Positions 15,356 to 34,790 of a stretch of 36,588 nt of DNA are shown one piece after another. The first letter of the stretch is position 1. Each line of letters starts with the position of its first letter. This stretch comes from a virus. Location: positions 1 to 36,588 of the IMG/VR virus record IMGVR_UViG_3300029989_000091; one strand, given 5' to 3'. The translations under genes and the position numbers were made by a program. The notes beneath the pieces are model-generated. The model was not told the DNA's origin, did no database searches, and saw nothing but the letters and a program-made list of their open reading frames with translations.

Positions 15356-15558
15356 GCCTTCCACGCCTCAACCCATCCAACAACCTGCGTCACGCCTTCT
15401 GCAAATGAAGGCGGCTTGTTCGCACACCCGTTGCGCAGGTTGTCCAGCAGATCGTCGATCAATGACGGCTCCGTCAAGGTCTTCTGTGCGTCCATTAGAA
15501 CGTCGAGAGCGTATTGCTTGCCCTGGCGGAACTGGTAGTTATCGTTTCGTCTGGTCAT
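15352..15558 (-). CDS. Small hypothetical protein, leftward operon
   Basis: The 68-residue protein starts MTRRNDNYQFRQGKQYALDVLMDAQ, is mostly helical by composition and ends VVGWVEAWKA. Its ATG overlaps the stop of the DnaQ-like exonuclease (ATGA), and its own stop overlaps the next start the same way, so it is firmly in the operon. No family was recognised. Coupling to the exonuclease suggests a DNA-metabolism or accessory role, as inference only. Confidence 0.65.
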   Translation of the reverse strand: MTRRNDNYQFRQGKQYALDVLMDAQKTLTEPSLIDDLLDNLRNGCANKPPSFAEGVTQVVGWVEAWKA

Positions 15559-16271
15559 TTCCCAGCCCTCTTGAACGCTTCCAAAACGTATTGGTCAGTC
15601 TCAGCCTGGCCGCGATACCACTTCACATAACTGCTCGGCACGTCAGAGATCGGTTCGCCTTTATGCTTTCCAAAGCCCATCACCGTAGGAATACGCGCGC
15701 AGTCGCTCAACAAAAGAACTTGGTCCCAGGTATCGATGCATAGGTCGCGCTTCTTGATCTCGAGCAGTAGGAATTTCAGAAGAATGGCGCAGCACTTCAC
15801 GTCAGCCAAAGCCGAGTGCGCGTTTTGCACCATGTTTCGCGCCCAGCCTAGATTGCCAATGGTCGAGCCGATGAAATAGATCATCGTTGTTTGCTTATGG
15901 TTGTCCATTTCTGGGAATAGCCAGCGGCTCAGGGCCAAGGTGCAGATGCGTTTAACGTCTGGCTCACCAAAGATCCGGTGGTCAAAGTCGATATTATGGC
16001 CTATCAGGAATTCAACCTCCTCTTCAAACTCAAACAGGCTTGATGCGGCCATTCCATCCAGATCACTTGGGATGATGTTGTGTGTAGCCATAGCGCCTAG
16101 CTCGATACTGCAAGAAGGCTGGAAACGCTGGTGATAGAACGGCAGCGCCAACGGCTTGGCAAGCGCTATAAACTCTTCCGGAGTTCCTGGCAGAATCAAC
16201 CATGCCGCCTCAATAATCTCCGCGTCCTGGCCGGTACCAGTTGTTTCACTGTCTGCAATTATCGTCCTCAT
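15555..16271 (-). CDS. DnaQ-like DEDD 3'-5' exonuclease
   Basis: The 238-residue product opens MRTIIADSETTGTG, the ExoI motif D-x-E-T-T-G. GHNIDFDHRIF gives the ExoII Asp, and AHSALADVKCC gives the ExoIII H-x4-D motif. The C-terminal ~50 residues (IPTVMGFGKHKGEPISDVPSSYVKWYRGQ) match the small FGKHKG...P-x-x-YxxW domain attached to some exodeoxyribonuclease X-like proteins. It degrades single strands 3'-5', perhaps in recombination or repair. Its start overlaps the stop of the SbcC-like ATPase gene (ATGA), suggesting the two act together. Confidence 0.85.
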   Translation of the reverse strand: MRTIIADSETTGTGQDAEIIEAAWLILPGTPEEFIALAKPLALPFYHQRFQPSCSIELGAMATHNIIPSDLDGMAASSLFEFEEEVEFLIGHNIDFDHRIFGEPDVKRICTLALSRWLFPEMDNHKQTTMIYFIGSTIGNLGWARNMVQNAHSALADVKCCAILLKFLLLEIKKRDLCIDTWDQVLLLSDCARIPTVMGFGKHKGEPISDVPSSYVKWYRGQAETDQYVLEAFKRAGK

Positions 16272-18001
16272 GCTGTCAGCTCCGCGATACCGTTTTCGAT
16301 CCAGACACCACCCACAGTCGGCGGTAGTGCTGGAAGCGCCTTCAAGGTCCCCGACAGAAGCATGGTGTCCATCGACTCCAGCTTACCCAGCTTGATCAGC
16401 ATCATCAGTAAGGCCGTCCGTGACTTGAGATCCAGAACATCGAAGCGGTCCAGCACCACCAAACGGAGCTGACTGATTTGGGCAACAGCCAGCGCGATAA
16501 GGCAATCGACACGCCATTTCTCAGACTCGCTGCAAAGGCCGTACAGGCGCCCGCCGAACGTAACTGCCATATCGGTATCGATTTCAGCCTTAGACCAGCC
16601 ACACATGCCAGCAAGCACGGACATCGACTGATTTACCGGCGCCATCGCGTCAGCAAGCAGTTCGCCGGGGATGCCGTCAGGTGCCAGCGCATCACCAACC
16701 GAGATCCAGGCCTTAACGTCGGCGTGCGCCTTGGCTGCGTCCTTGGTTTTGGTCACGCATGATTCAGCGTCATACCGCGCCTGTTGTTTAGCGTTGAACT
16801 CTTCACGAGCGGCAGTGATCATCCCGGCTAGCTTCTCGACCGACACCAACGCACGGTCAAGTTTGTCTTGGTCAACCTTGTCGAAAACCTCGGCGCTGAT
16901 GGTTTTGAATTGCTCGGCAGCGTTTTCAGATTGCGAGATATCCCGCAGGTCGTTGTCGCGGGTGCGGCGCATGAGGGCAATGGCTTCTTTCGCCTTGGTC
17001 ACTTCCAATGCTAGGGTTTGGGCGCGCCCGGTGTCGGCTTTCAGACCGGCGAACTTTTCAAGCTTGCCATCAACGAAACGAAGGTCCTCATCACAGCACG
17101 GGCACTTAATCGGCTCGGCCCCAGCGCGGCACTCGGCCAGGGTTTCAACCAAACCTGGCAACTTGGATTCCCAGGCGGCAAGATCCTTTTCTGTCTCGGC
17201 CAACTTGGCTTTACGGCGCGGCAACAGCTCGGCAGTTTCATCTGCATCGCTCAGTCTTTGGTGCCAGCTATTCGTTGCCTCAGACAGCCCGCGTTGATAA
17301 GCGATATAGGCCAGCCCATCTTCGCGGTTTTTTTGGTGCTTGGTTGCCTTTGCAAGCAGTTCGTCTAGTTCCTCTTTGGTAGGAGCCTTCCCCTCTGGTT
17401 TCGGAGCGCTCCAGCCTTCGGCAACGACGCTTCCCCATACTTGCCCGGTGATTGCCTTCCATGCGCCTTTTGCAGCCGTAGCGCGTGCGTACGCCTCTTT
17501 GCTGGCAGCAGGGAATCCACCGTGCAGCATAGGCGAGAACTCTTCCACCATTTCTTCGCTGATGCCGCGCTCGATCAGCTTATCGGCGATCAGCTTGCCG
17601 CTGGCCTTGATTCCTGTCAGGCCGAACAGCATGGTCCGGCGTGCGTCTGCATCGACCTCACAGAACAGCGACGGGCGCAGCACGAAAGGCAGGAACTCTG
17701 CCCCGGCGATTGCTGGCGCGCCATGCTCACCCTTTGGCAGCCGGAACTCGGCGGCATCCTCAATGCCTTCGAACGTGACATTGATCCGGCCTTTCTCGGC
17801 GCCGTTGTTCAATGCTTGATTGAGATTCTTTTTCAGGTCAACCCGGGCAGGCTTGCCAAGAATCGCCATCGACAGGCAATCACCAATGCTGGACTTCCCA
17901 GCCGCGTTATCTCCGGCCAACAGCGTTACGGCGTTTTTCAGATTGAGATCAGCGCGGGCAATACCCAGCACGGAGCTGATGGTGATTTGATTAATTTTCA
18001 T
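16268..18001 (-). CDS. SbcC/Rad50-like SMC-type ATPase with CPCC hook
   Basis: The 577-residue protein starts MKINQITISSVLGI. Walker A is GDNAAGKS at 30-37. A coiled-coil region about 210-440 is broken by CPCC at 300-303, a Rad50-type zinc-hook motif. A signature-like CSESEKWR lies near 488, and Walker B VVLDRFD near 515-521. It is short for SbcC (about 1000 residues), like other phage Rad50-type ATPases. Normally the partner is an SbcD/Mre11 nuclease; none is visible, and a DnaQ-like exonuclease is coupled downstream instead. AAGGA precedes the ATG. Confidence 0.85.
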   Translation of the reverse strand: MKINQITISSVLGIARADLNLKNAVTLLAGDNAAGKSSIGDCLSMAILGKPARVDLKKNLNQALNNGAEKGRINVTFEGIEDAAEFRLPKGEHGAPAIAGAEFLPFVLRPSLFCEVDADARRTMLFGLTGIKASGKLIADKLIERGISEEMVEEFSPMLHGGFPAASKEAYARATAAKGAWKAITGQVWGSVVAEGWSAPKPEGKAPTKEELDELLAKATKHQKNREDGLAYIAYQRGLSEATNSWHQRLSDADETAELLPRRKAKLAETEKDLAAWESKLPGLVETLAECRAGAEPIKCPCCDEDLRFVDGKLEKFAGLKADTGRAQTLALEVTKAKEAIALMRRTRDNDLRDISQSENAAEQFKTISAEVFDKVDQDKLDRALVSVEKLAGMITAAREEFNAKQQARYDAESCVTKTKDAAKAHADVKAWISVGDALAPDGIPGELLADAMAPVNQSMSVLAGMCGWSKAEIDTDMAVTFGGRLYGLCSESEKWRVDCLIALAVAQISQLRLVVLDRFDVLDLKSRTALLMMLIKLGKLESMDTMLLSGTLKALPALPPTVGGVWIENGIAELTA

Positions 18002-18003
18002 TA

Positions 18004-18642
18004 TTAAGCATCCTTTTCAATTTGCGCGGTAGATCCGGTCCACTCACCATCATTGATCAGTTGGCGTAGGCGTTGCTCTTGGGCGTCCCGTGCTGCGTCC
18101 CGTGCTGCGTACCATGCTTCGTCCCCTGCTGCGTACCGTGCTGCGGCCAGTGCTGCGTACAGTGCTGCGTCCTCTGCTGCGTCCTCTGCTGCGTCCTCTG
18201 CTGCGGCCCATGCTGCGCCCCCTGCTGCGTCCTCTGCTGCGTCCTCTGCTGCGTCCTCTGCTGCGTCCTCTGCTGCGGCCCATGCTGCGGCCCATGCTGC
18301 GGCCCATGCTGCGGCCCATGCTGCGGCCAGTGCTGCGTCGTCACAAAGGCCGTTTGCAAACTGCTCAGCAACGTCCAGCGCATTCAAGCTGCGAGGGTCG
18401 GTCATCAGGTGCTGTACTTGGCGAGCAGCCCATACAGCGAGCAGACGAAAATCTCTGTCATGGTTTTTAACGGCCCGCATCGACCACAACGCGTCATCTA
18501 GGCCATTACTATCGAGGATAGTAAGTAGCGAAATAGGCTCGTCATCTGCTTTAGTTTTCCCAAGCGTCCCGAGAAGCTTTTTCCATCCCTCGGTGCACGG
18601 ATCGCATTCCCGGATTTGGTTCAGCGTGGTTATAAATTTCAT
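18004..18642 (-). CDS. Alanine-rich repeat protein, Imm5-like
   Basis: The 212-residue protein starts MKFITTLNQIRECDPCTEGWKKLL. The early C-x2-C-x2-G-W motif, then LDDALWSMRAVKN and LLAVWAARQVQHL, followed by an Ala-rich segment, match the layout of Imm5-like putative immunity proteins that are common in phages with unknown function. Residues 103-186 are 21 tandem tetrapeptides (AAWA, AAED, AARD and variants), probably one long helix or a helical repeat. It is followed two bases later by the SbcC-like gene. Its start shares the recurrent GACCAA leader. Confidence 0.65.
   Translation of the reverse strand: MKFITTLNQIRECDPCTEGWKKLLGTLGKTKADDEPISLLTILDSNGLDDALWSMRAVKNHDRDFRLLAVWAARQVQHLMTDPRSLNALDVAEQFANGLCDDAALAAAWAAAWAAAWAAAWAAAEDAAEDAAEDAAEDAAGGAAWAAAEDAAEDAAEDAALYAALAAARYAAGDEAWYAARDAARDAQEQRLRQLINDGEWTGSTAQIEKDA
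18085..18336 (-). repeat. 12-bp tandem repeats encoding Ala-rich tetrapeptides
   Basis: About 21 units of 12 bp lie head to tail, mainly of two types on the minus strand: one encoding AAED and one encoding AAWA. Near-identical neighbours suggest recent slippage or unequal recombination. The repeat opens reading frames in several other frames on both strands, which are artefacts. Confidence 0.85.
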
Positions 18643-18659
18643 TGGTCTGACTCCTTTGT

Positions 18660-18818
18660 CTATTTGGTCAATGCTTCCATTACTTTTTTCAGGTCGTATC
18701 GCTTAGAAGCTCCGATGACGACATGGGGAATTTCGCCTCCCCTGGTCCAGCGCCTGACTGTCTCAACATTTACCGTCAATATTTTGGCCAAGTCTTTGGC
18801 CTTTAGCAGCTCGTTCAT
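18660..18818 (-). CDS. Small MerR/excisionase-like HTH protein
   Basis: The 52-residue protein starts MNELLKAKDLAKILTVNVETVRRWTRGGEIPHVVIGASKRYDLKKVMEALTK. KDLAKILTVNVETVRRW is a helix-turn-helix and GGEIP...ASKRYDLKKV is the wing seen in excisionase/HTH_17 domains. The ATG at 18818 has AAGGTGG upstream; a longer frame to 18902 lacks a site and would cross the promoter. It is first in an operon led by the 18870-18898 promoter, with a dyad in its leader, so it could be autoregulatory. With no integrase in the window, a regulator is more likely than an excisionase. Confidence 0.75.
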   Translation of the reverse strand: MNELLKAKDLAKILTVNVETVRRWTRGGEIPHVVIGASKRYDLKKVMEALTK

Positions 18819-18826
18819 AACCCACC

Positions 18827-18851
18827 TTGTCAAAGTTGGCCAGTTCGACAA
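18827..18851. promoter_or_regulatory. Imperfect dyad in the 5' leader (possible operator)
   Basis: TTGTC and GACAA flank a TGGCCA core over 25 bp. It lies just downstream of the predicted start point of the 18870-18898 promoter and before the HTH gene. Position and symmetry fit an operator for a repressor, perhaps the HTH protein itself. The arms are offset by one base. Confidence 0.4.
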
Positions 18852-18869
18852 AGTACCGGCCACACACGC

Positions 18870-18898
18870 AATGTAGCGTTTTGTTGTATTTATGTCAA
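18870..18898 (-). promoter_or_regulatory. Sigma70-type promoter for HTH-SbcC-exonuclease operon
   Basis: On the minus strand TTGACA (perfect -35) is followed by 17 bases and TACATT (-10, four of six). The predicted start near 18862 leaves about a 44-base leader before the ATG at 18818. It stands immediately after a terminator, as expected for a new leftward unit. Confidence 0.7.
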
Positions 18899-18902
18899 GC
18901 AC

Positions 18903-18931
18903 AAAAAAGCCCCGGATGATTAGTCCGGGGC
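18903..18931 (-). terminator. Rho-independent terminator, leftward
   Basis: GCCCCGGA and TCCGGGGC form an eight-base stem around a seven-base loop. On the minus strand six T follow. It ends the RecT/exonuclease operon after the winged-helix gene. Confidence 0.9.
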
Positions 18932-18952
18932 CTCGGTTACAGATGGTTGACG

Positions 18953-19966
18953 TTACGCGGTTTCACCAATGATCAGGCGCAGGCCCATGTCATCTTCCGG
19001 TGAAATGAAGCCTTCCAGCTCCAGGCGCTCGATGGCTTGTGTCGCCAGCGCTTCAGACAGGTCGAAGGAAACAATCAGGCCGCTTGCATATATCTCGCCG
19101 TCACGCACTGCCTTGGCGCGGATCTTTTCCAGCAGGTCATCGGTCAGCTCAGTAGGGTTATCCGAAAAATCATTGAGGCATCCAGATTCATCGGCGGTCA
19201 CTTCTTTGGCTTCCTCGGCCTTTTTAGCTATGACCATTTCCCATCCGCCTTCCAGATCGCTACCAACAAACTCAACGACCCCTTCCGCAGCCAGTGCTGA
19301 AAGCAGGGCATTGGCTTTATTGAAACCTATGCTCAAGCGGTTTTGCAGGCCTGCAATGCTGGCGTTCTTGTTGGTCACAACAAAGTCGCGGGCCTTATCG
19401 AGCATTTCAGCTTCGATCACCACCGGCTTTGCTTCTGCCTTTGGCTTTGGATCGGCTTTTGCTTTGCGTACAGGCTTGGCTTTTTCAGAAGGATCTACCG
19501 TATCAACAGGCTCATCAATTGGCAGCGACTTCTGTTGCTTCTCGCCGCGGTGCGCGTCCATACCTTGCAAGAAGTCACGTTCATTCAGGATCACCAACAC
19601 ATCGGCTTGGTCGGTGGCCGCGTCAAGCAGTTCATGCTTCCACTCTTCTGTTGCGCTGACTTCACCGGTGACCTTGAGTTTCTTGCCAACCGCACAGCTT
19701 TTCAGGCTAAGGCGAACGGTTTTGGTAGCCTGCGCACCGATGATAGATACGGCGGTTTTGATCGCCTCCTTCAAGCCGTCCTGCATTTCAGCGATGGCCG
19801 CATCTTGCTGGATCTCTGACATATTCTTGAAGGCGACGGCGTGTTTTTTCATCTGCACCAGCATGAGGTCAAGCAGGTCATGCCCCATCAGCTCCTCGGC
19901 AAGCTCCATTGGAAGCAGGCCGTCACGGGTAGCGCGCTGAACGATTGCTTTATGTTCATATTTCAT
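18953..19966 (-). CDS. Winged-helix protein of recombination operon (FtsK-gamma-like domain)
   Basis: The 337-residue protein has an N-terminal region with MELAEELMGHDLLDLMLVQ. A Lys/Pro/Ala-rich linker follows (about 150-185). Then EMLDKARDFVVTNKNASIAGLQNRLSIGFNKANALLSALAAEGVVEF strongly resembles the FtsK gamma winged helix that binds KOPS DNA. The last ~60 residues (ASGLIVSFDLSEALATQAIERLELEGFI) look like a second, degraded winged helix. It lies after RecT in the same operon, ahead of a terminator. A DNA-binding role in recombination or replication is likely; the exact job is unknown. Confidence 0.6.
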   Translation of the reverse strand: MKYEHKAIVQRATRDGLLPMELAEELMGHDLLDLMLVQMKKHAVAFKNMSEIQQDAAIAEMQDGLKEAIKTAVSIIGAQATKTVRLSLKSCAVGKKLKVTGEVSATEEWKHELLDAATDQADVLVILNERDFLQGMDAHRGEKQQKSLPIDEPVDTVDPSEKAKPVRKAKADPKPKAEAKPVVIEAEMLDKARDFVVTNKNASIAGLQNRLSIGFNKANALLSALAAEGVVEFVGSDLEGGWEMVIAKKAEEAKEVTADESGCLNDFSDNPTELTDDLLEKIRAKAVRDGEIYASGLIVSFDLSEALATQAIERLELEGFISPEDDMGLRLIIGETA

Positions 19967-20031
19967 GGGATCTCGCTTTTTTGGTTGGGTTGGTCAAAGT
20001 GGTTGGCGCAGCTTTCACCGCGCCCGGTCAA

Positions 20032-20973
20032 TCATTCCATCGAAAAATCTTCGTCAAACTCTTCATCGGGAATCGGGGTTTTAGCTTCGGCCACTGGATC
20101 GGCTTTTTTCTCCGGCTTAGCCTTTGGCTCGGGCTTAGCTTTCTGCTCAGATTTCACTTCCGGCTTGATCTCGCCTGTCGCAGTGTCAACCGTTTCAGCC
20201 TGACCACGGTCTACCGATTCACGCGGCTGCTCGGCCAGGTCAATCACAATGCCGTTCTCGATGATAGTGCCACGGCCTTCCTCGGCTGCTTGGCTGACAG
20301 CGAGCGCGTTGCTCATTTCGATGCTGCTCGGCATGTACTTGATGACCTGCAACAGCGGGATCTTGCGGCAATACATTTCCCAATTGCCATATGAATAATG
20401 ACGCTGGCCGACCTTATTGTAATGGTCCCGGTGTTTTCGGATCTTGCCGACAGTCCACAGCTCGATGATGGGCATCGACGAATCTTTGACCCAGCCTACC
20501 GCGTAGGCATGGGTGATATTGTCCGGTCCGTCGAGTTCGGTTTCGTTGTGAATGACCAGATCGCGGCGGGCACCATCGGTGAAGGTGTATTCCTGATCGC
20601 TCATAATCACGCCAGTGAACACTGTACCGCGCCCGGAGCGCGACACCAGATCAACCAAGCCTTTCCAGCCTGGAACAAAGGTGCAGGTGTCTTTGTACGG
20701 GATCAGGTAACCGGCGCCATTTACCCCAGGCTCAAGGCCAAGCTGTGCGGCGGTCATGATCGATGCAGCAATACTTTGGTGCGTACAGCGCTGAAGATGT
20801 TGCGAAGTACTGAATGCAGTCATCGCCAAGCGAGCCATACGGTCGCTGGTCAGGTGTTTCGGCAAAGCCAAAGCCAATTGCGGCTTTAGCTTGTCCATGA
20901 AATTGGAGAACTCGGTGACAGGCTTGGCGACACGCTGGGCGCCGACGGCTTGGCGTAGGTCATTCGTTGACAT
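20032..20973 (-). CDS. recT: RecT-family single-strand annealing protein
   Basis: A 313-residue protein. The core reads LALPKHLTSDRMARLAMTAFS, then AASIMTAAQLGLEPG, GAGYLIPYKDTCTFVPGWKGLVDLVSRSG and WTVGKIRKHRDHYNK, all typical of RecT/Bet-type annealases. The C-terminal ~80 residues are Lys/Pro/Glu-rich, ending in an acidic DEEFDEDFSME tail. It anneals single strands made by its partner exonuclease, encoded 10 bases upstream. AGAGGATC precedes the ATG. The pair forms a phage recombinase, useful for recombination-dependent replication and concatemer formation. Confidence 0.92.
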   Translation of the reverse strand: MSTNDLRQAVGAQRVAKPVTEFSNFMDKLKPQLALALPKHLTSDRMARLAMTAFSTSQHLQRCTHQSIAASIMTAAQLGLEPGVNGAGYLIPYKDTCTFVPGWKGLVDLVSRSGRGTVFTGVIMSDQEYTFTDGARRDLVIHNETELDGPDNITHAYAVGWVKDSSMPIIELWTVGKIRKHRDHYNKVGQRHYSYGNWEMYCRKIPLLQVIKYMPSSIEMSNALAVSQAAEEGRGTIIENGIVIDLAEQPRESVDRGQAETVDTATGEIKPEVKSEQKAKPEPKAKPEKKADPVAEAKTPIPDEEFDEDFSME

Positions 20974-20983
20974 GGTAGATCCT

Positions 20984-21898
20984 CTATTTCAGGCGTAGGA
21001 CGCGGCTGGCGCTGGTTTTTGTGTACTTCTTGGCGATTACCGGATGGGCAGCCCGGAAAGTGTTGATATCGAATCGGTCGGTGTTCTGAGACTTCCAGGT
21101 CAGCAGCTTGTCAGCGCCGAACTGTAATACCTGATGCTCACCGAGGAACAGCTTTATCAGGCTTTCCTGTTCTCCAATGTCAGATTCGATCAGCTTTAGG
21201 CGCTTTTTCAGATCCTTGAGTTCAAGGTAAGCGTCCCGCACTTCCACGGATGCCTGAATGACTGAGCCGTGATCCCACGGAAATAGGCGCTCGATATCTG
21301 ATACGGTTTTGGCCGGTGGGGCATCCAGGCGCTGGATGCGATCCCACATTTCGATCTCAGCTTGGCGCAGGTATGTGATTACTTCGTCGTCGCGCTTGAC
21401 GTGGTACAGGCGAAAATCATCAACGCCAATCAGGACCGGGAAGATTGTTTCCTGACTACAGCGGACCATCATCCCGTGTTGCGCCTGCGCGTTGTAATAG
21501 ATCGGCACGTCATCGGTGTACTGCTCACCCCACGAACCTTTGCCATAAAAGTTGGCCGACTTGGCCTCTACGTTTTTGCCGTCGTCCGTTTCCGCGTCCA
21601 GCTCAGCAGCAAGAAAGGGCAGTTCCTTATCAAGGTGGCGGCGGCTGCGCTTGCCATCATCAAAGCGAAGTAGGCGAATTCCATGCTCATCTTCCAGCAT
21701 GTCGAGAATGTACGGCTCAAGGCGATGGCCGCGCTTGAAGATTGCTGCTTTCTCAGGGGTGATCGGCTCGGGGCCGCTGGTTTTATCGAGGTACACATCC
21801 AACGCCGTACGCCAAGGCGATACGCCCAGGATTGCCGCTGCGTCTGATGATCCGATGTACGTCTTACGGTCGATATTTCCGACTGTTTGAGTGGTCAT
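20984..21898 (-). CDS. YqaJ-type (lambda exonuclease family) recombination nuclease
   Basis: 304 residues from ATG 21898; an in-frame TTG at 21910 is the alternative. IGSSDAAAILGVSPWRTALDVYLDK is the YqaJ/lambda-exo opening motif. RGHRLEP gives the upstream Glu, LDAETDDGKNVEAK the Asp101 and Glu111-x-Lys113 of the PD-(D/E)xK site, and YYNAQAQHGMMV the Gln motif. It is a processive 5'-3' exonuclease on double-strand ends that loads the RecT partner encoded next. The start shares the GACCAA leader and lies below a TATAAT promoter. Confidence 0.9.
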   Translation of the reverse strand: MTTQTVGNIDRKTYIGSSDAAAILGVSPWRTALDVYLDKTSGPEPITPEKAAIFKRGHRLEPYILDMLEDEHGIRLLRFDDGKRSRRHLDKELPFLAAELDAETDDGKNVEAKSANFYGKGSWGEQYTDDVPIYYNAQAQHGMMVRCSQETIFPVLIGVDDFRLYHVKRDDEVITYLRQAEIEMWDRIQRLDAPPAKTVSDIERLFPWDHGSVIQASVEVRDAYLELKDLKKRLKLIESDIGEQESLIKLFLGEHQVLQFGADKLLTWKSQNTDRFDINTFRAAHPVIAKKYTKTSASRVLRLK

Positions 21899-21929
21899 GG
21901 TCTGTTCCAATGGTCATTTGGTCTGGTCA

Positions 21930-24055: not shown

Positions 24056-24268
24056 TCACATCCCCTTTTTGTAGAAAAATGGGAACAGGCAAATCGCAAA
24101 AGAAGCCCCGATGATTATCCATACGACGTACTTGTCTTGCGGACTTCCAGCAAGATGAAAAAGCCACTCAGCCAACATCATTGGGATGGACACCAGCGCC
24201 ATCAGGACGATGCCAGGGCCAAATGCCCAGCAGGCGAGCAACAGCAAGATAATCAGGAATATTTTCAT
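24056..24268 (-). CDS. Small membrane protein, two segments
   Basis: The 70-residue protein starts MKIFLIILLLLACWAFGPGIVLMALVSIPMML, one long or two short membrane spans, then a loop, then VVWIIIGASFAICLFPFFY, another span. The Cys in the first segment is not in a clear lipobox. The start has AGGA and the GACCAA-type leader. Unknown function; early phage membrane proteins can act in superinfection exclusion. Confidence 0.6.
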   Translation of the reverse strand: MKIFLIILLLLACWAFGPGIVLMALVSIPMMLAEWLFHLAGSPQDKYVVWIIIGASFAICLFPFFYKKGM

Positions 24269-24323
24269 GGTCTTAGTTCCTTGGTTTGGCCTAGGTTAAG
24301 GGGCTTAGGGTAGGAAGGTTGGT

Positions 24324-24533
24324 TTATGAAAGCGCGGACATTACCTGTTTTATAGAGGATCTTTCCCCGTCCATACGAAAGCGAAAACTTTCGATGCGGC
24401 GACCGTTACGGGTCTGTGCAACGGACATGCAATAGATTTTTTTGCCGTTGATAGCCTTAACCGAGTCGCAGCTATCAGAAGATTGCGCTTCTTGCATCAG
24501 CTTATGCAGTTCATTCAGATTTGGATTACTCAT
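24324..24533 (-). CDS. First gene of leftward early operon, hypothetical
   Basis: A 69-residue protein starting MSNPNLNELHKLMQEAQSSDSCD and ending RFRMDGERSSIKQVMSALS. No motif recognised. It is the promoter-proximal gene after the strong leftward promoter, with GGAG and the GACCAA leader upstream, so it should be expressed early and well. A 55-base gap separates it from the next gene. Confidence 0.6.
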   Translation of the reverse strand: MSNPNLNELHKLMQEAQSSDSCDSVKAINGKKIYCMSVAQTRNGRRIESFRFRMDGERSSIKQVMSALS

Positions 24534-24576
24534 GATGTCTTACTCCGTTGTTTGGTTGGTCGCTGCTTGTGACCTA

Positions 24577-24604
24577 ATCATAGCGCAAGGAGGAATTGCG
24601 TCAA
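24577..24604 (-). promoter_or_regulatory. Leftward early promoter (PL-like)
   Basis: Minus-strand TTGACG (five of six) is followed by 16 bases and TATGAT (five of six). It reads into the 24533 gene and the whole leftward early cluster, and lies in the divergent gap beside the XRE regulator gene. The rest of the gap (24605-24694) is very A/T-rich and probably holds the rightward promoter, but no good match was seen there. Confidence 0.75.
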
Positions 24605-24694
24605 GATAAAATTGCTAAAAAAATAGTAAAATATAAATTGCCATCCTTTATAGATGTGAATAACCTTCACTCCATCAACAGCGAGGGCATATCA

Positions 24695-24895
24695 ATGCAC
24701 ATTGGACGATCCACACGAATAGCTATGGCCCAGCGCGGTATGCGCAGCAAGGATCTGGCGCAGATTTTAGGCATGACCCAAACGTCAATCAGCTTGGTAC
24801 TTTCCAGAGAAAGCAGCCCAGGCGGCCTGGTCAAGAAGCTGGCCGAAGTGTTCGGCATGAAGGCGAGCGAATTTGTAGCACTTGGGGAGGACTGA
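24695..24895 (+). CDS. Small XRE/Cro-like regulator
   Basis: 66 residues from ATG 24695, with GCGAGGG upstream; a longer TTG frame from 24596 has its Shine-Dalgarno only two bases away and overlaps the leftward promoter. STRIAMAQRGMRSKDLAQILGMTQTSISLVLSRESSPGGLVKKLAEVFGMKASEFVAL is a complete XRE-type HTH. There is no protease or oligomer domain, so it is Cro-like rather than CI-like. Its place next to the divergent promoter suggests it controls the early leftward and rightward switch. Confidence 0.85.
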   Translation: MHIGRSTRIAMAQRGMRSKDLAQILGMTQTSISLVLSRESSPGGLVKKLAEVFGMKASEFVALGED

Positions 24896-24897
24896 TT

Positions 24898-25122
24898 ATG
24901 GAAATTGAAGGCAAAAAAACCTTGGTAGCTGAATGGACCTCATGCGGTGAACTCATCATCGGTCAGGGGAATAACGTTATTGAGCTGTCACCTCAGCAGG
25001 CAGCAGAATTGCTAAGGTTTATCGATGAAAGGGATGACCCAGCAATTAAGAATTACCAGGGTGAAAAGGAAGCCCTTACGGCTTGGGAAAAATCAAAAAT
25101 TGCCAAAGGCAAGGTGAAATAA
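24898..25122 (+). CDS. Hypothetical protein before replication gene
   Basis: The 74-residue product starts MEIEGKKTLVAEWTSCGELIIGQGNNVIELSPQQAAELLRFIDERD: a short beta sheet followed by a helix. It starts three bases after the regulator stop with GGGGAGGA upstream and ends just before the replication initiator. Nothing identifies its role; it is possibly an auxiliary regulator or replication helper. Confidence 0.65.
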   Translation: MEIEGKKTLVAEWTSCGELIIGQGNNVIELSPQQAAELLRFIDERDDPAIKNYQGEKEALTAWEKSKIAKGKVK

Positions 25123-25123
25123 A

Positions 25124-25876
25124 ATGTCTTCATGGGTAAAGGTGTCTCGAAAGCTGCTCACGAGCGCCATAGCCTCTAAACCCGAGTACCTGGCCGTGTG
25201 GCTTCACCTTCTGCTTTCTGCAAATTACAAGGAGGGTGATTTTGTCGCGGGACGGCAGATTGTCAGGTTAAAACCGGGCGATTTGATATTCGGACGGCAT
25301 AAATTCTCTGAGAAAACGGGGGTTTCCGAGAGTATCATCCGTGGTGCTCTAAAAGCGCTCGAAAATCTCCAACAGATAACCATCAAAAGCTATTCAAAAT
25401 TCTCAGTAATATCAATAACTAACTGGGCGCGCTATCAGGTCGATGACCAGCAGATGACCAGCAGATCGCCAGCAGTTGACCAGCAGATGACCACTTCTAA
25501 AGAAGGTAAAGAAATACAAGAAGAAGATATAAATCAAAAACCCTTGTCATCTGGCAATGACGATCCGCCGAAAACGAGAACACGAAAAGCTGACGAAACC
25601 CCGTATCAGAATTTCATGGAAACCTATCAACAGATTTGCGGTGGACGATTCAAGCCAGCCGAGAAGCTAAACCCAAAACGAAAAATTGCGATCAAGCGGG
25701 CATGGGACTACACCGTCAGGAACACCCACCCATTCCGCAACGACGGGTTTTTGGAAAAGTACCTTGGGAAATGCATATTGGATAAATTCATGTGCGGCGA
25801 GAACGCAAGGGGCTGGAAGGCAGACATCGAATACGTTTTCCGCGAAAAGACCATAAACGACCAGATTGGAGTTTGA
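25124..25876 (+). CDS. Replication initiator / helicase-loader-like protein (phage O type)
   Basis: A 250-residue protein. Residues 1-105 (SSWVKVSRKLLTSAIASKPEYLAVWLHLLLSAN..., KFSEKTGVSESIIRGALKALENLQQI) form a winged-helix domain of the phage replication-protein type. A low-complexity middle (DDQQMTSRSPAVDQQMTTS, then acidic and Lys-rich) is encoded by the iteron array. The C-terminal ~90 residues (YQNFMETYQQICGGRFKPAEKLNPKRK...) fit a helicase-interacting domain. It directly precedes dnaB, like the initiator-helicase gene pairs of lambdoid phages, and probably binds the array and recruits the helicase. Confidence 0.75.
   Translation: MSSWVKVSRKLLTSAIASKPEYLAVWLHLLLSANYKEGDFVAGRQIVRLKPGDLIFGRHKFSEKTGVSESIIRGALKALENLQQITIKSYSKFSVISITNWARYQVDDQQMTSRSPAVDQQMTTSKEGKEIQEEDINQKPLSSGNDDPPKTRTRKADETPYQNFMETYQQICGGRFKPAEKLNPKRKIAIKRAWDYTVRNTHPFRNDGFLEKYLGKCILDKFMCGENARGWKADIEYVFREKTINDQIGV
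25442..25496 (+). repeat. Five 11-bp iterons inside the initiator gene, candidate replication origin
   Basis: Five head-to-tail 11-mers: GATGACCAGCA twice, GATCGCCAGCA, GTTGACCAGCA, then GATGACCACTT. The next ~50 bases (25497-25545) are A-rich. The same layout, iterons inside the initiator gene followed by an A/T-rich unwinding region, defines the lambda ori within O. The period is not a multiple of three, so it is not driven by a repeated peptide. Confidence 0.65.
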
Positions 25877-25879
25877 CCA

Positions 25880-27238
25880 ATGCGTGACCCGTATAGCCAA
25901 GAGGCCGAGCAAGGTTTGCTGGGCGCCATGCTCATCAAGCCTGAGCTAATCGACATCCTGAGCGCCGATGTTCAGGTCAGTGATTTTTATTTTGATTACA
26001 ACCGGGATGTGTACCGGGCAATTCTGGCGCTACGGTCCCGCAACGCATCGGTGGACATCCTCACCGTGGCAGACCAAATCGGGACATGGGGCACCGAGGC
26101 ATCACCGCTGGCCTACTGCGCCGACCTGGACCGCAACACACCCAGCGCGGCCAATGCCAAGGAATACGCACGCATCGTCCTGGAGCGCAGCATTGACCGC
26201 GCCATGATCGAAGTTGCGCGCACCATCCACGAATCGGCGCACAGCGATGCAGCAACCGAGGATAAAATCGCACTGGCCCAGGCCGAGGTGCTGTCGATCA
26301 GTGCTGAGTCAGCCACTCCAGAGATCGTGTCAGCCGCCGATGTTATGCGCGCCCACGTCGCAGAGCTTGATCGCCGCGATGGCCTCAAGGGCGAAATTGA
26401 TGGCCTATCCACCGGCATTGAAACGCTTGACGCACGCCTGATGGGCATGAAGCCCGAGCAACTGATCGTGATCGCCGGTCGGGCCAAGATGGGTAAAACC
26501 ACACTGGCAATGAATATCGCCGCATCGAACGCCATTCGTGATGGGAAAAAGGTGCTTGTGGTGTCACTTGAGATGTCGCAGGGACAACTCATGGACAGAA
26601 TGCTAGCCTCTACGGGCTGTATACCCCTTCACAGCCTAAAAGACGGCTCAGCCACCCTGACCCATAGCTTACAGTTGTTAAACGCCTCTAGCGCGATTAT
26701 AGGAAGCGGGCTAAAACTCTCGGCAAGGCGCGGGCTGACCATCAACCGAATTCGCTCGATGGCCCGCCGTGAAAAAATGCTGAACGGCCTGGATTTGCTA
26801 GTGATTGACCATATTGGCTTGGTTGACGTTGATGACCCTAGGGCTAACAGCGTGGTCCGTATCAGTGAAATTACTCGCCAATCGAAGTTGCTCGCGGCAG
26901 AGCTGGGCATCCCGGTGATTATCCTGTCGCAGCTCAACCGCTCGCTGGAATCGCGCCCGGACAAGCGCCCTATCCCGTCTGACCTGCGCGACAGTGGTTC
27001 GATTGAGCAGGACGCCGACTTGATCCTGTTCGTTTACCGCGATGAGGTTTACCACCCGCATAGCGAAGCCAAGGGCACGGCAGAGATCATCATCGGTGTG
27101 GCGCGGGATATCGAGGCCGGGATGGTGCGCGTGCAGTACCAGGGCAAATACTCGACCTTTTGCGACATCAAGGGTTATGAGGGAGAAGCAAAATATACGA
27201 CAACAAAATCTTATGCATCGAGTTCATTGCTCGACTGA
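25880..27238 (+). CDS. dnaB: Replicative DNA helicase, DnaB family
   Basis: The 452-residue protein opens with the DnaB N-terminal domain: SQEAEQGLLGAMLIKPELID, then DFYFDYNRDVYRAILAL. After the linker, GLSTGIETLDARLMGMKPEQLIVIAGRAKMGKTT carries Walker A (GRAKMGKT). VVSLEMSQGQLMDRML, LLVIDHIGLVD (Walker B), LSQLNRSLESRPDKRPIPSDLRDSGSIEQDAD and ILFVYRDE follow, covering helicase motifs. It unwinds the fork 5'-3' and would be loaded by the upstream O-like protein. The start is part of the GACCA/TTGGAG leader, four bases after the initiator stop. Confidence 0.95.
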   Translation: MRDPYSQEAEQGLLGAMLIKPELIDILSADVQVSDFYFDYNRDVYRAILALRSRNASVDILTVADQIGTWGTEASPLAYCADLDRNTPSAANAKEYARIVLERSIDRAMIEVARTIHESAHSDAATEDKIALAQAEVLSISAESATPEIVSAADVMRAHVAELDRRDGLKGEIDGLSTGIETLDARLMGMKPEQLIVIAGRAKMGKTTLAMNIAASNAIRDGKKVLVVSLEMSQGQLMDRMLASTGCIPLHSLKDGSATLTHSLQLLNASSAIIGSGLKLSARRGLTINRIRSMARREKMLNGLDLLVIDHIGLVDVDDPRANSVVRISEITRQSKLLAAELGIPVIILSQLNRSLESRPDKRPIPSDLRDSGSIEQDADLILFVYRDEVYHPHSEAKGTAEIIIGVARDIEAGMVRVQYQGKYSTFCDIKGYEGEAKYTTTKSYASSSLLD

Positions 27239-27249
27239 GAGGTAACGCC

Positions 27250-27387
27250 ATGCAACAAGGCAGCGTGTTTATTGCTCTTTTGCTGAAACGCTGGATAAAG
27301 GACTGTAAGAGTGAAAAACGCAAGAAAGAGTTAGTAGAATTACTGACCGATTTGACAAAACCAAAGACCACAGAACGGGACCGATAA
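27250..27387 (+). CDS. Small basic protein (45 aa)
   Basis: ATG 27250 with GAGAGGT upstream opens a 45-residue frame starting MQQGSVFIALLLKRWIKDCK and ending KPKTTERDR. It is highly basic with a short hydrophobic N-terminal part. It fits exactly between dnaB and the next gene, with one base between its stop and the next ATG, which supports coding. Function unknown. Confidence 0.6.
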   Translation: MQQGSVFIALLLKRWIKDCKSEKRKKELVELLTDLTKPKTTERDR

Positions 27388-27388
27388 A

Positions 27389-27820
27389 ATGAGCAGATCA
27401 CAAGAACGATTCAATGCATTACAAGTATCAATAAACGAACTCATGAGCGATCACAAGATTGCTATTGACGCGATGGATTCAACAAATAAAGCATTCGTCA
27501 AGATTCTGAACGAGCGCGACGAAATTCAAGGGCGTTTGCAGGCAATTGACCATGCCTACGCGAACAGCCAGCAAGCCAACAAAGCAGCCGGTGAAGAGAT
27601 CCGTAGGCTCAAGGCTGAGAACGCAGAAATGGCATGTAAGCTGGACAATTCCTTTGTTATTAATAACCGCATGAAAGCCGTACAGCGGATTGTTCATGAA
27701 TGGCTTGTCCCAGACAGTAATTTGCGCGCAAGGCTTGCGATTCATAGAATTGTTGCGGCGGTCGATGACGAAAAAATTTGCAATGCTCAAAAGATGCTCA
27801 CTGCCAATAAAAGCGAATGA
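27389..27820 (+). CDS. Coiled-coil hypothetical protein
   Basis: The 143-residue product is mostly helical with heptad-like stretches (MDSTNKAFVKILNERDEIQGRLQAI, NKAAGEEIRRLKAENAEMACKLDN). The C-terminal ~45 residues (AVQRIVHEWLVPDSNLRARLAIHRIVAAV) look like a separate small helical domain. Its stop overlaps the next start (ATGA). No family recognised; it lies in the replication-proximal cluster. Confidence 0.65.
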   Translation: MSRSQERFNALQVSINELMSDHKIAIDAMDSTNKAFVKILNERDEIQGRLQAIDHAYANSQQANKAAGEEIRRLKAENAEMACKLDNSFVINNRMKAVQRIVHEWLVPDSNLRARLAIHRIVAAVDDEKICNAQKMLTANKSE

Positions 27821-30686: not shown

Positions 30687-31109
30687 ATGGCTAAGGTAGG
30701 GCGACCAACTCGCTATACAATCGAGCATGCACGTCTTGCCGAAAACTATGCGCTGATTGGTTTTGATGACATTCGGATGGCTGATGCGTTTGAAGTTAGC
30801 GTGGCTACTTTGACCAAATGGAAAAAAGCCCATCCCGAATTTGTTGCGGCCATAAAAGCAGGCAAGGATGTTGCGGACGGAAACGTAGCCATTTCCATGT
30901 ACAAGATGGCGACCGGGTTTGTCGGTCCAGACGGCAAATACTATCCGCCCAATGCTACATCTCAGATATTCTGGATGAAGAACAGGCAGAAGCTGGGGTG
31001 GCGTGAGAAACAGGAGGTCGAGCATTCCGGGCAGATCACCTACAAGGACATGACCGATGACGAACTCGACGCAAAAATCAGACAGCTCCAGAAAGATGAG
31101 CCGCAATGA
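30687..31109 (+). CDS. Terminase small subunit
   Basis: A 140-residue protein starting MAKVGRPTRYTIEHARLAENYALIGFDDIRMADAFEVSVATLTKWKKAHPEF, an HTH DNA-recognition domain. GKDVADGNVAISMYKMATGF and SQIFWMKNRQKLGWREKQEVEHSG follow, the pattern of phage small terminases. It recognises the pac site, often located within its own gene in headful phages, and regulates the large subunit. The P22 equivalent gp3 is 162 residues. It overlaps the large-subunit gene start by 14 bases. Confidence 0.85.
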   Translation: MAKVGRPTRYTIEHARLAENYALIGFDDIRMADAFEVSVATLTKWKKAHPEFVAAIKAGKDVADGNVAISMYKMATGFVGPDGKYYPPNATSQIFWMKNRQKLGWREKQEVEHSGQITYKDMTDDELDAKIRQLQKDEPQ

Positions 31110-32547
31110 ACAGATCCAGCTCCTGGCGCTGCTTGAGGAAAAGCAACGGCGCCGGGACAGGGAGAAGTTCAAGCAACGGTTCGATACGCTGTATTTCTGG
31201 CAGCACACTTTCATCAAGGCTACGGCTGGCAACACCGCGTGCATGCTGATGGCAGCCAACCGGGTGGGCAAGACCATGACCGGACTGACCATCGACGCCG
31301 CGCACCTGCTGGGCGATTACCCTGAATCTTGGGATGGGCACCGCTTCGACTTTGCTCCGATGTGCTGGCTGCTTGGCTACTCCATGGAGAAAACCCGTGA
31401 CCTACTTCAAAATGTGCTTTTCGGCATTTATGCGAATGGCGCTTGGTCTGGTGGTCTTGTTCCTGCTGACCGCATCGTTGGGTATCTTTCCGCATCGGGC
31501 ACCACCGGCGCAATGCGGCAGGTCACCGTCCGGCACGCAACGGGCGGCACATCCACTGTTCAGTTCTGGTCATATTCCCAGGGCCAGCACGCAATCATGG
31601 GCGACACCGTCGATTGGTATCACATCGACGAAGAGCCTCGCGACAAGGCCATATTCCCTCAAGTCCTGACCCGTACAGCTACAGGTGATCGTGGTCGTGG
31701 CGGGCGTGGCATCCTCACGTTTACGCCAGAGAACGGGCGAACAGAGCTTGTCGTCCAGTTCATGGATGCGGCCAACGAAGGCCAGTATCTCCAGCGCGCC
31801 ACTTGGGATGATGCACCGCACCTAACCGAACAGACCAAGCGCACGCTCCTGGCGATGTACCCAGAATGGCAAAGGGCGATGCGTACCCGGGGCGAACCGC
31901 TTCTAGGCTCCGGCCTGATCTTCGATATGGCCGACAGCGTGTTTTCGTGCCAGGCGTTTGAGATCCCCGATCATTGGTATCTCATCAACGGCATGGACTA
32001 CGGATGGGATCACCCCCAGGCACACATCCAGCTCGCTTGGGACAAGGACAGCGACACGGTCTACGTTACCCATGCCTGGAAGAAGTCCAACACCGTGCCA
32101 GAGCTTGCATGGTCAGCCGTCAAGCCGTGGGCCAATGGCATCATCACCGCATGGCCGCACGACGGACACCAACACGACAAAGGCAGCGGCAAGGCCCTGT
32201 CGGAGACGTACAAGGCCGCAGGATGGAAGATGTGCAACGAGATGGCATCGTGGCCCACGGGAGGCAACTCGGTTGAGGCTGGTCTAGTCGAGATATATTC
32301 AAGGATGGAAAAGGGCACGTTCAAAGTGTTCTCACACCTCACGCCGTGGTTCGAAGAAAAGATGAACTACCACCGCAAGGAAGACGGGACTATTGCCAAG
32401 GTCAACGACGACATCCTGTCAGCCACCCGCTACGCCTACATGATGCGGCGCTATGCCGTCCAAAAGGGCAAGGTCGGCGCCGTAGTCGATATCAAGCCTA
32501 GAATTGCACAAGGCCCAACGCCCGGTGGTACGTCATGGATGGGTTGA
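31096..32547 (+). CDS. Terminase large subunit
   Basis: 483 residues from ATG 31096; an alternative ATG at 31057 would add 13 residues. ACMLMAANRVGKTMTGLTID contains a Walker A variant (ANRVGKT). VDWYHIDEEPR is Walker B with the catalytic Glu. TFTPENG follows as motif III. The C-terminal half is an RNase H-like nuclease: LINGMDYGWDHPQAHI supplies the first Asp and NDDILSATRYAYMMRR the last. The motor packages DNA by headful. P22 gp2 is 499 residues. Confidence 0.93.
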   Translation: MSRNEQIQLLALLEEKQRRRDREKFKQRFDTLYFWQHTFIKATAGNTACMLMAANRVGKTMTGLTIDAAHLLGDYPESWDGHRFDFAPMCWLLGYSMEKTRDLLQNVLFGIYANGAWSGGLVPADRIVGYLSASGTTGAMRQVTVRHATGGTSTVQFWSYSQGQHAIMGDTVDWYHIDEEPRDKAIFPQVLTRTATGDRGRGGRGILTFTPENGRTELVVQFMDAANEGQYLQRATWDDAPHLTEQTKRTLLAMYPEWQRAMRTRGEPLLGSGLIFDMADSVFSCQAFEIPDHWYLINGMDYGWDHPQAHIQLAWDKDSDTVYVTHAWKKSNTVPELAWSAVKPWANGIITAWPHDGHQHDKGSGKALSETYKAAGWKMCNEMASWPTGGNSVEAGLVEIYSRMEKGTFKVFSHLTPWFEEKMNYHRKEDGTIAKVNDDILSATRYAYMMRRYAVQKGKVGAVVDIKPRIAQGPTPGGTSWMG

Positions 32548-32606
32548 AAGCCAGTCATGATAAAGTCGCCAAACCCAACGCCTCCGGGCATTAACGAGTA
32601 TTCCCC

Positions 32607-34790
32607 ATGAGCAAAGAAGACGACGACAGCATTGTGCAGACGGCACACGACCGGTTCAAACTGGTCAAGGATTATGAGGCTGACTTTCGAGTTCTCTACG
32701 TCGATGACGTGAAGTTCTGCAACGCCGACAGCGACAACAAATTCCAGTGGCCCGCAGCGATGACGCAGAGCCGGGAACTAGATGCGCGGCCTTGCCTGAC
32801 CATCAACAAGACGCGACAGCACGCGCTGATGATCCAGAACGAGATAAAGCAGAACTTGCCCGCGATCAAGATCAGCCCCGTGGGCGGCGACGCGACGGTG
32901 GACGCGGCCAGCGTATTCATGGGCCTGGCTCGTTACATCGAGTACAACAGCAATGCGGCAGACGCCTACAGCACGGCCATGATGCATCAGGTTCAAGGCG
33001 GCATCGGCTATTGGCGCGTTGTGACCGACTACAAGGACGAGGACTCGTTTGACCAAGAGATATTCATTCGTCGGATCAAAAACCCGCTGTCGGTCTATCT
33101 GGACATGAGCGGCGACCAAGAGGACGGGTCAGACGCTCAATACGGGTTCATCTTTGAAGACATGCCGCGTGAAGAGTACGAACGCAAATATCCCAAGTTC
33201 AAGTCCATCGGTGACCGCTCCGTCTTTGGTAACGCCACCGACTGGCTGAGCAAGGACAAGGTGCGCGTAGCCGAGTATTTCTACATCGAATATGAAAAGG
33301 ATTGGCTCGTTGCGATGCCTGTCCGCGATCCTATGACGGAGCAGCCCGTCCCAGGCCAATACGACACTATGCGCTTGTCGGAGATCCCACAGCAGTTGCG
33401 CCAAGCCGTCAAGGACTCCCCCGACATCAAGAAACGCCGCGTGCAGGTTCCACGGGTGAAGTGGTGCATGATCGCCGGGGACGAGATCATCGACCGCAAA
33501 GACTGGCCCGGTAAGTACATTCCCATTGTCCGCGTGGTTGGCGAAGAGCAGGTGATTGACGGTGAACTTGACCGCAAGGGCCACGTTCGCAACCTGAAAG
33601 ACCCGCAGCGCATGTACAACTACTGGACTAGCTCAGCCGTTGAGCAGGTGGCATTACAGGGGAAGCAACCCTACATGGCTTCGGCCCAGGCCATCGCCGG
33701 TTATGAGTCGTACTATCAGAACGCCAACCGAATCAATTATCCCTATCTGCCATATAACGGCGTTGACGAACAAGGTCAGCCATTGCAGGCGCCTCAGCGT
33801 GAACAGCCACCACAAATGGCCGGGGCTTACATCAGCGGCATGCAGATCGCCGCCGAAGAAATGAAGATGGTTTCCGGCCAGCAAGATCCAACGATGGGCG
33901 CGCAGGCCAACGAGATCGCAGGCGTTGCCATTCAGAAGCGGATCAAGCAGGGCGATAAGGCGACGTATCACTACATTGACCAAATGTCGAAGTCGATCCG
34001 CTTTACCGGCAAGATTATCGTTGACTTGATCCCGAAGATTTACGACACCGCACGGGTGATCCAGATCCGGGCCGAGGATGGCAGCGACGAACAGATCAGT
34101 ATCGACCCGAACCAGAAAGAGGCGCTTACTACTCAGAAGGAAGACGAACGCGAGAACGAGGCTTCGCGGATCTTCAACCCATCAGTGGGCAAGTACGATG
34201 TAGTGGCCCAGGCCGGTCCGTCCTACGCCACCAAGCGTGAAGAGGCGGCAGAGTCGATGACCGCCATTGCGATTGGCAACCCGGGCTTTATGGATAAGGC
34301 CGGTGACATCTTCTTTAAGACAATGGACTTTCCAGGCAGCGAGGAACTTGCCGAACGCTATCGAAACTCGATTGCCCCGCAGTTGCTTGGCGAAGGCCCA
34401 ACCCCAGCCGAACAGCAGCTACAGCAGCAATTGCAGGACGCACAGCAGCAGCTCCAGAACACGCAATCAATGCTCGCCTCGGCATTGCAGGAGTCGGCAG
34501 ACAAAGCGCGCACCCTGGACGATAAAGAGAAGCGAACCGAGATCGAGGCTTACCGGGCGATGACGACTCGCTTGAACGACATGTTCACCCGCATGGAAGC
34601 GATGGGCACCACCCCAGCTCTGGCCGCTGTACAGGCTCAGACCATCGTCTCAGCCCACCAACAGCCGCATCCTACGACTGATGTACAATCATACCCAGAG
34701 GCACCGGAACCAATGCCACAGCAGGCAATGCCAGCGCCTCAACCCCAGGTACCACAACCGGGCGCGATGATGCCCAACCAACCGCAATAA
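32607..34790 (+). CDS. Portal protein, P22 gp1-like
   Basis: At 727 residues it matches P22 gp1 (725). It begins MSKEDDDSIVQTAHDRFKLVKDYEADFRVLYVDDVKF. The pattern LTINKTRQHALMIQNEIKQNLPAIKISPVG, then YSTAMMHQVQGGIGYWRVVTDY, and SAVEQVALQGKQPYMASAQAI is characteristic of the P22 portal family. The C-terminal ~130 residues are Gln/Ala/Pro-rich with a coiled-coil segment (AEQQLQQQLQDAQQQLQNTQSML), like the helical barrel of P22 that reaches into the head. The dodecamer forms the DNA channel and docks the terminase and gp4. Confidence 0.93.
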   Translation: MSKEDDDSIVQTAHDRFKLVKDYEADFRVLYVDDVKFCNADSDNKFQWPAAMTQSRELDARPCLTINKTRQHALMIQNEIKQNLPAIKISPVGGDATVDAASVFMGLARYIEYNSNAADAYSTAMMHQVQGGIGYWRVVTDYKDEDSFDQEIFIRRIKNPLSVYLDMSGDQEDGSDAQYGFIFEDMPREEYERKYPKFKSIGDRSVFGNATDWLSKDKVRVAEYFYIEYEKDWLVAMPVRDPMTEQPVPGQYDTMRLSEIPQQLRQAVKDSPDIKKRRVQVPRVKWCMIAGDEIIDRKDWPGKYIPIVRVVGEEQVIDGELDRKGHVRNLKDPQRMYNYWTSSAVEQVALQGKQPYMASAQAIAGYESYYQNANRINYPYLPYNGVDEQGQPLQAPQREQPPQMAGAYISGMQIAAEEMKMVSGQQDPTMGAQANEIAGVAIQKRIKQGDKATYHYIDQMSKSIRFTGKIIVDLIPKIYDTARVIQIRAEDGSDEQISIDPNQKEALTTQKEDERENEASRIFNPSVGKYDVVAQAGPSYATKREEAAESMTAIAIGNPGFMDKAGDIFFKTMDFPGSEELAERYRNSIAPQLLGEGPTPAEQQLQQQLQDAQQQLQNTQSMLASALQESADKARTLDDKEKRTEIEAYRAMTTRLNDMFTRMEAMGTTPALAAVQAQTIVSAHQQPHPTTDVQSYPEAPEPMPQQAMPAPQPQVPQPGAMMPNQPQ

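Follow-up and report, generated by a model that had tools for sequence, protein, structure and literature searches.

In bacteriophage lambda, the initiator O binds iterons and opens a 40-bp A+T region, O and P contacting the single-stranded DNA (excerpts of PMC5043065 and PMC7466680); the iterons lie inside gene O itself, and DnaB is handed over through P (excerpts of PMC5043065). The replisome organizers of phages TP901-1 and Tuc2009, and the gene 38/oriL system of SPP1, are described in the same terms, with an initiator that binds direct repeats within its own gene and thereby marks the origin (excerpts of PMC8965321 and PMC6316719). For the RepA_N initiators, excerpts of PMC7145576 describe the iterons as semi-palindromic and cite the structure 4PT7 beside staphylococcal plasmid RepA proteins.

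Here we analyzed a virus record of 36,588 bases, hereafter the window, whose ends share no repeat of 10 bases or more. From the sequence alone, an iteron array and adjoining A-rich bases inside a putative initiator gene had been predicted to form a lambda-type origin. Our results support this reading as the best explanation of the locus, which has iterons followed by a melting tract, within the gene and in the same polarity as in lambda: the window carries direct repeats inside the phage's own initiator coding sequence, of the lambda/SPP1/TP901-1 kind, and a stability scan finds an easily melted AT-rich tract next to them. We thus consider it highly probable that array and tract constitute a replication origin, lying in the part of the initiator gene that is predicted to encode a linker. 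The features on which the argument relies are as follows.

24695..24895, + strand: Cro/CI-type helix-turn-helix protein, the first rightward gene (HTH_3, 1.1e-05)
25124..25876, + strand: initiator gene, 250 aa (PHROG 2514, DnaD-like helicase loader, residues 1-171, 2.3e-29; PHROG 345, O-like, residues 6-243, 7.7e-25; AlphaFold2 model)
25124..25438, + strand: winged-helix domain, residues 1-105, proposed iteron binder (model, fold matches, co-variation with the iteron core)
25442..25493, + strand: 11-bp direct iterons with core ACCAGCA, four of them full and the fifth truncated (TRF; synonymous-recoding test)
25494..~25545, + strand: proposed DNA unwinding tract, including the junction to the last iteron, purine-rich on this strand (stability; junction and register in relatives)
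25500..25526, + strand: three 9-bp tract units, AAGAAGGTA, AAGAAATAC and AAGAAGAAG (sequence; 9-bp register as in relatives; spacing class)
25601..25867, + strand: helical C-terminal domain, about residues 160-248, proposed helicase recruiter (common to P22/HK97-type initiators)
25880..27238, + strand: DnaB-type replicative helicase (DnaB_C, 3.2e-75; DnaB N, 6e-24)

The AlphaFold2 model of the initiator (29-row alignment) comprises a winged helix up to about residue 105, a disordered segment at residues 108-143 with pLDDT below 50, and a helical C-terminal domain from about residue 160, both domains being mostly above pLDDT 90; array and tract encode the predicted linker between the two. Fold matches of the N-terminal domain were mainly CRP and CodY winged helices, and also included 4pql (Z 8.4 over 89 residues) and 4pt7 (Z 8.2 over 98), chains titled DNA binding protein or initiator. 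A Foldseek search of the PDB returned nothing at E ≤ 0.001, and a sequence search of solved structures gave a single marginal match, the GntR regulator 2di3. Pfam showed no match to RepA_N (PF06970) and, at E ≤ 0.1, none to DnaD_N (PF21984), DnaB_2 (PF07261) or Phage_rep_O (PF04492) in this protein; a Staphylococcus relative (L011) does carry DnaB_2. The original prediction had placed the repeats in the middle of an O-like gene with dnaB next. The mid-gene position and the neighboring helicase gene are confirmed, while the likeness to O holds for PHROG 345 and not for the Pfam domain, and an hhalign comparison of the window and lambda O N-termini gave a probability of 0.1, detecting no relation.

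Cumulative GC skew, suggested beforehand as a check, has its minimum at 24179, 1.3 kb off the array, which agrees with an origin here but is weak evidence because transcription changes strand at about 24.5-24.7 kb. A promoter scan of 24300-25200 gave a result at chance level. Elsewhere in the window, a leftward block at 15555-21910 (- strand) holds genes for a RecE-like exonuclease, a RecT-like annealing protein, an SbcC-like protein and a polymerase-exonuclease, and the genes for terminase and a P22-like portal lie to the right, at 31057-34790. Another repeat, of 21 copies of a 12-bp unit at 18083-18339, is in frame within a - strand gene (18004-18642; PHROG 18326) and encodes alanine-rich repeats of AAWA/AAED type.

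Tandem Repeats Finder (TRF) reports the array with period 11, 4.7 copies and a score of 83, its units reading, in order, GATGACCAGCA, GATGACCAGCA, GATCGCCAGCA, GTTGACCAGCA and a truncated GATGACCA. The tandem arrangement is thus as predicted, except that the fifth of the five announced units is an 8-base partial. At up to one mismatch, GATGACCAGCA occurs four times in the window against 0.85 expected, a count reached by 0 of 100 shuffles, with one of the four copies outside the array, at 20341. The 18-19-bp palindromic iterons of lambda O type were not found in the array. Behind it, the expected stretch of about 50 A-rich bases is present and turns out to be more than A-rich, as AAGAA recurs at 25500, 25509 and 25518, in a 9-bp register common with relatives. 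In a scan of 50-mer stability, only one locus of the window, at 24606, ranks below the tract; of 36,539 50-mers, 21 are less stable than the one starting at 25492. The purine content of the tract stands at the 99th percentile. We set aside an identity with the DnaA-trio, whose triplets do not appear to match. A role at the RNA level was considered and rejected, with folding barely above that of shuffles (z -1.5; 15 of 200 equally good) and no Rfam match in 24500-27500.

To collect relatives, we searched phage records and the contigs of viruses and bacterial genomes with nothing but the N-terminal domain. Clustering at 93% identity left 65 of the 114 loci found, a group of 44 Staphylococcus-type loci counting as one. 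Loci L002-L007 and L013-L016 stayed outside this set as duplicates or near-duplicates, as carriers of a different N-terminus, or, for CUS-3, to be treated apart. An 11-bp array (score ≥ 12) lies at the same place in the gene in 55 of the 65, and in the other ten, one of which (L039) is cut off, it falls below the threshold. Rotated to a common phase, the units of array-bearing relatives share the core A[AC]CA[AG]CA; core and junction are common to relatives with whole-protein identities of about 25-35%. The comparison with orthologous genes, as had been proposed, bears out the array through its position, its shared core and the 9-bp register. Titles of array-bearing genome contigs name Planctomycetota (including Phycisphaerae), Bacillota genera, Verrucomicrobia, Elusimicrobia and Flavobacterium, host names that are provisional because several of these loci are metagenome bins; Pseudomonas phages are among the array-bearing relatives as well. 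Four enterobacterial loci (L118, L120, L122, L123) have short split arrays, and the canonical tract is not directly behind the first part. Like CUS-3, this branch deviates from the 11-bp/9-bp plan, and both, together with the ten relatives below the threshold, count against the origin reading. In Vibrio phage 1.189.B, the repeats are of 23 bp and resemble 11 + 12 bp; a junction close to the canonical one follows. PLSDB holds twelve plasmid records with the N-terminal domain, several of them of 27-43 kb, which may be phage-plasmids or misfiled prophage genomes. Three phage records probably contain errors: the initiator region of Listeria phage P9 is labelled as a tail tape-measure protein, Staphylococcus phage SA 1298 Kay gives a P22-type enterobacterial initiator match, and genes neighboring the lambda locus (J02459) wrongly bear the cII product name.

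In the family, a junction (often CAAACAAGAATG) adjoins the last iteron, and AAGAA then repeats at 9 bp. Junction and register were counted in 54 arrays, one of the 55 being dropped since it has no tail, with the array end set by the repeat alone. For the junction we used the 12-base motif C A W W M A A G A A K G, which was derived after inspection of the very sequences that were scored. At least 10 of its 12 positions agree precisely where the array stops in 39 of the 54, against 0-5 at the other offsets reported and 21 of 2750 control windows from the same genes. In the iteron-only set, which overlaps the first, 30 of 63 among the matches listed reach this level. Occurrences of AGAA peak at +6 (34 arrays), +15 (28), +24 (23) and +33 (15) after the array, the window belonging to a spacing class whose first AAGAA sits one base farther out.

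DNA patterns alone recover the same loci. A search with the tract pattern found at least 80 loci, 60 of them distinct; among the matches listed, 58 of the 60 fall within genes that encode the N-terminal domain, 57 have an array scoring at least 12, and in 54 array and tract are joined gaplessly. The two exceptions, L172 and L200, match near the end of their own locus. With the iteron pattern, at least 80 loci (71 distinct) were found, and 63 of the 71 among the matches listed have the N-terminal domain; as for the matches that do not, L254, L255 and L291 start at the edge of a contig or locus, the reading frame in L300 is no more than a short one, and L253, L271, L305 and L318 are apparently unrelated coding repeats.

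The 11-base period, being out of phase with codons, had been taken as a sign of selection on DNA. The contrary reading is that the repeats were selected as a peptide linker, rich in Gln, Thr and Ser and then in Lys, Asn and Glu, or that they are the product of neutral slippage in an unconstrained linker; the predicted disorder of the region and the recurrence of the peptide DQQMT 11 residues on in the window speak for it. We compared each array with a null in which the peptide is fixed and the codons are redrawn 2000 times from the usage of its own gene. None of the 2000 redraws reaches the 11-bp score of the window (27.8 against a mean of 7.0; p = 0.0005, the floor), and among the relatives, two of the 65 being too short for the test, 58 of 63 beat recoding at p < 0.05 and 50 of 63 at p < 0.005. 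For the tract, the 9-bp lag alone beats recoding (0.05) in just 18 of 63, and the 9-bp claim thus rests on codon bias, register and frame switching. In genes picked by the array only and with the junction excluded, Lys codons AAG:AAA stand at 54:20 in the tract against 188:364 in the rest of the same genes, and in the other frame Glu codons GAA:GAG stand at 32:3 against 124:114, while Glu codons in the first frame, a control, are unbiased in the tract. Moreover, each of the three codon phases occurs at the array end (65, 29 and 14 of 108 arrays deduplicated from 125). For the first base of AAGAA, codon positions 0, 1 and 2 account for 40, 39 and 1 of 80 arrays, after removal of 28 of the 108 without AAGAA in the stretch searched. 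The common form ATGTAA would contain a stop in the third frame, which would explain why that frame is nearly absent. A quick tree built from the N-terminal domain (about 104 columns) requires at least 17 changes of tract frame and at least 24 of array phase. As an individual example of a frame shift, the pair formed by the window and L017, a near relative, was considered and rejected, as their alignment could equally reflect a unit lost on one side and gained on the other; the family-wide frame count was used instead. Across the family, the DNA is preserved while the encoded peptide has changed, bearing out the original argument. A repeat that synonymous recoding destroys, a stretch of DNA that serves two codon frames and has changed frame at least 17 times, and a core and junction kept at such low protein identity already contradict the peptide-linker and slippage reading, which we regard as very unlikely.

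Both domains of the initiator flank the array, and the iteron core varies with one of them. Distances between cores correlate with N-terminal distances (Mantel r 0.445, p 0.0005; 0.44 with C-terminal distance removed) and not with C-terminal distances once the N-terminal ones are removed (r -0.07, p 0.98). In addition, HU1, PSA04, Omnitron, V3 and HK97 combine the C-terminal domain of the window with another N-terminus, and carry at the same place repeats spaced 20-24 bp, palindromic in several of them; a sixth phage with a different N-terminus, JBD44, has 15- and 22-bp repeats. The N-terminal domain is thus exchanged together with the repeat type. Such co-variation and joint exchange are the modular behavior expected if the N-terminus binds the repeats, and we propose the winged helix as the iteron-binding domain. 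Binding by this domain would account equally well for the co-variation if the array were an operator through which the initiator controls its own gene or the helicase gene, the origin activity being elsewhere; that reading leaves unexplained both the low-stability purine tract in 9-bp register behind the array and the location within the gene instead of at a promoter, and we judge it improbable. Domain exchange across the linker also raises the idea that the array is a joint for swapping N- and C-terminal domains, kept since it recombines. Given that the repeat type changes with the N-terminal domain, there is no common sequence by which modules could pair, and this idea appears extremely improbable.

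For the origin that we favor, we infer, by analogy with lambda, binding, opening and helicase loading in the following order. Initiator molecules would line up head to tail on the 11-bp direct repeats through their winged-helix domains, at a spacing of roughly one turn of the helix. The resulting initiator filament may strain or open the adjoining tract, where the 9-bp AAGAA-type units stand in fixed register to the last iteron, and the C-terminal domain would help to place the phage DnaB, encoded next to it, on the opened strand.

Going beyond this locus, we tentatively suggest a widespread and unnamed class of bipartite phage origins, in which a fixed junction connects 11-bp winged-helix sites, arranged head to tail, with 9-bp units of the AAGAATG type, which may serve as sequence-specific sites on the opened strand (compare the oriC 13-mers and DnaA-trios), the whole being a DNA module kept through frame changes and exchange of the C-terminal domain. 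Phages of very different bacteria would then have a two-part origin plan in common, replication starts of uncultured phages could be found by DNA pattern alone, and natural co-variation might reveal the code by which the winged-helix initiator recognizes the iteron core. In the frame switching, a single piece of DNA plainly answers to two demands at once. The fixed 9-bp register beside the iterons gives a concrete model of melting-tract order, probably of most use to origin specialists because it is testable at once. In lambda (J02459) and three further loci (L247, L248, L249), the AT-rich tract has a common start, approximately ACACAAAAGA, directly behind the last iteron. Ordered tracts may thus be general, since lambda-type origins too have a common tract start.

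How, then, does this origin relate to known systems? Proteins of the RepA_N plasmids and satellites have an N-terminal winged-helix domain of similar fold (4pql and 4pt7, at middling Z). The origins of TP901-1 and Tuc2009, known from experiment, were considered as members of the same class and rejected, as their N-termini do not match the window domain and their repeats are other than 11-bp. Initiators of P22/HK97 type (gene 18/O with a phage DnaB) have a related C-terminal domain and dnaB as next gene, while HK97 differs in having a repeat spacing of roughly 23-24 bp and an N-terminus of lambda type; conversely, CUS-3 has the N-terminal domain in common (HMM, 4e-21) but 12-bp repeats. The kind of origin is already known; the bipartite class, its frame-independent conservation and the winged-helix co-variation exceed the open papers searched, and no description of an 11-bp/9-bp class was found in the open-licence papers searched. 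The closest likeness in layout is to ori-lambda, whose sequence we inspected, with iterons within gene O and an AT-rich, purine-rich tract on the same side. The gene following O in lambda is the loader gene P, whereas dnaB itself follows in the window. Dimers bind the lambda iterons, inverted repeats of 18-19 bp, and the asymmetric 11-bp spacing of the window units suggests monomers bound head to tail instead. The best reading is thus an origin that is lambda-like in its working, with short, asymmetric iterons and an initiator not detectably related to lambda O.
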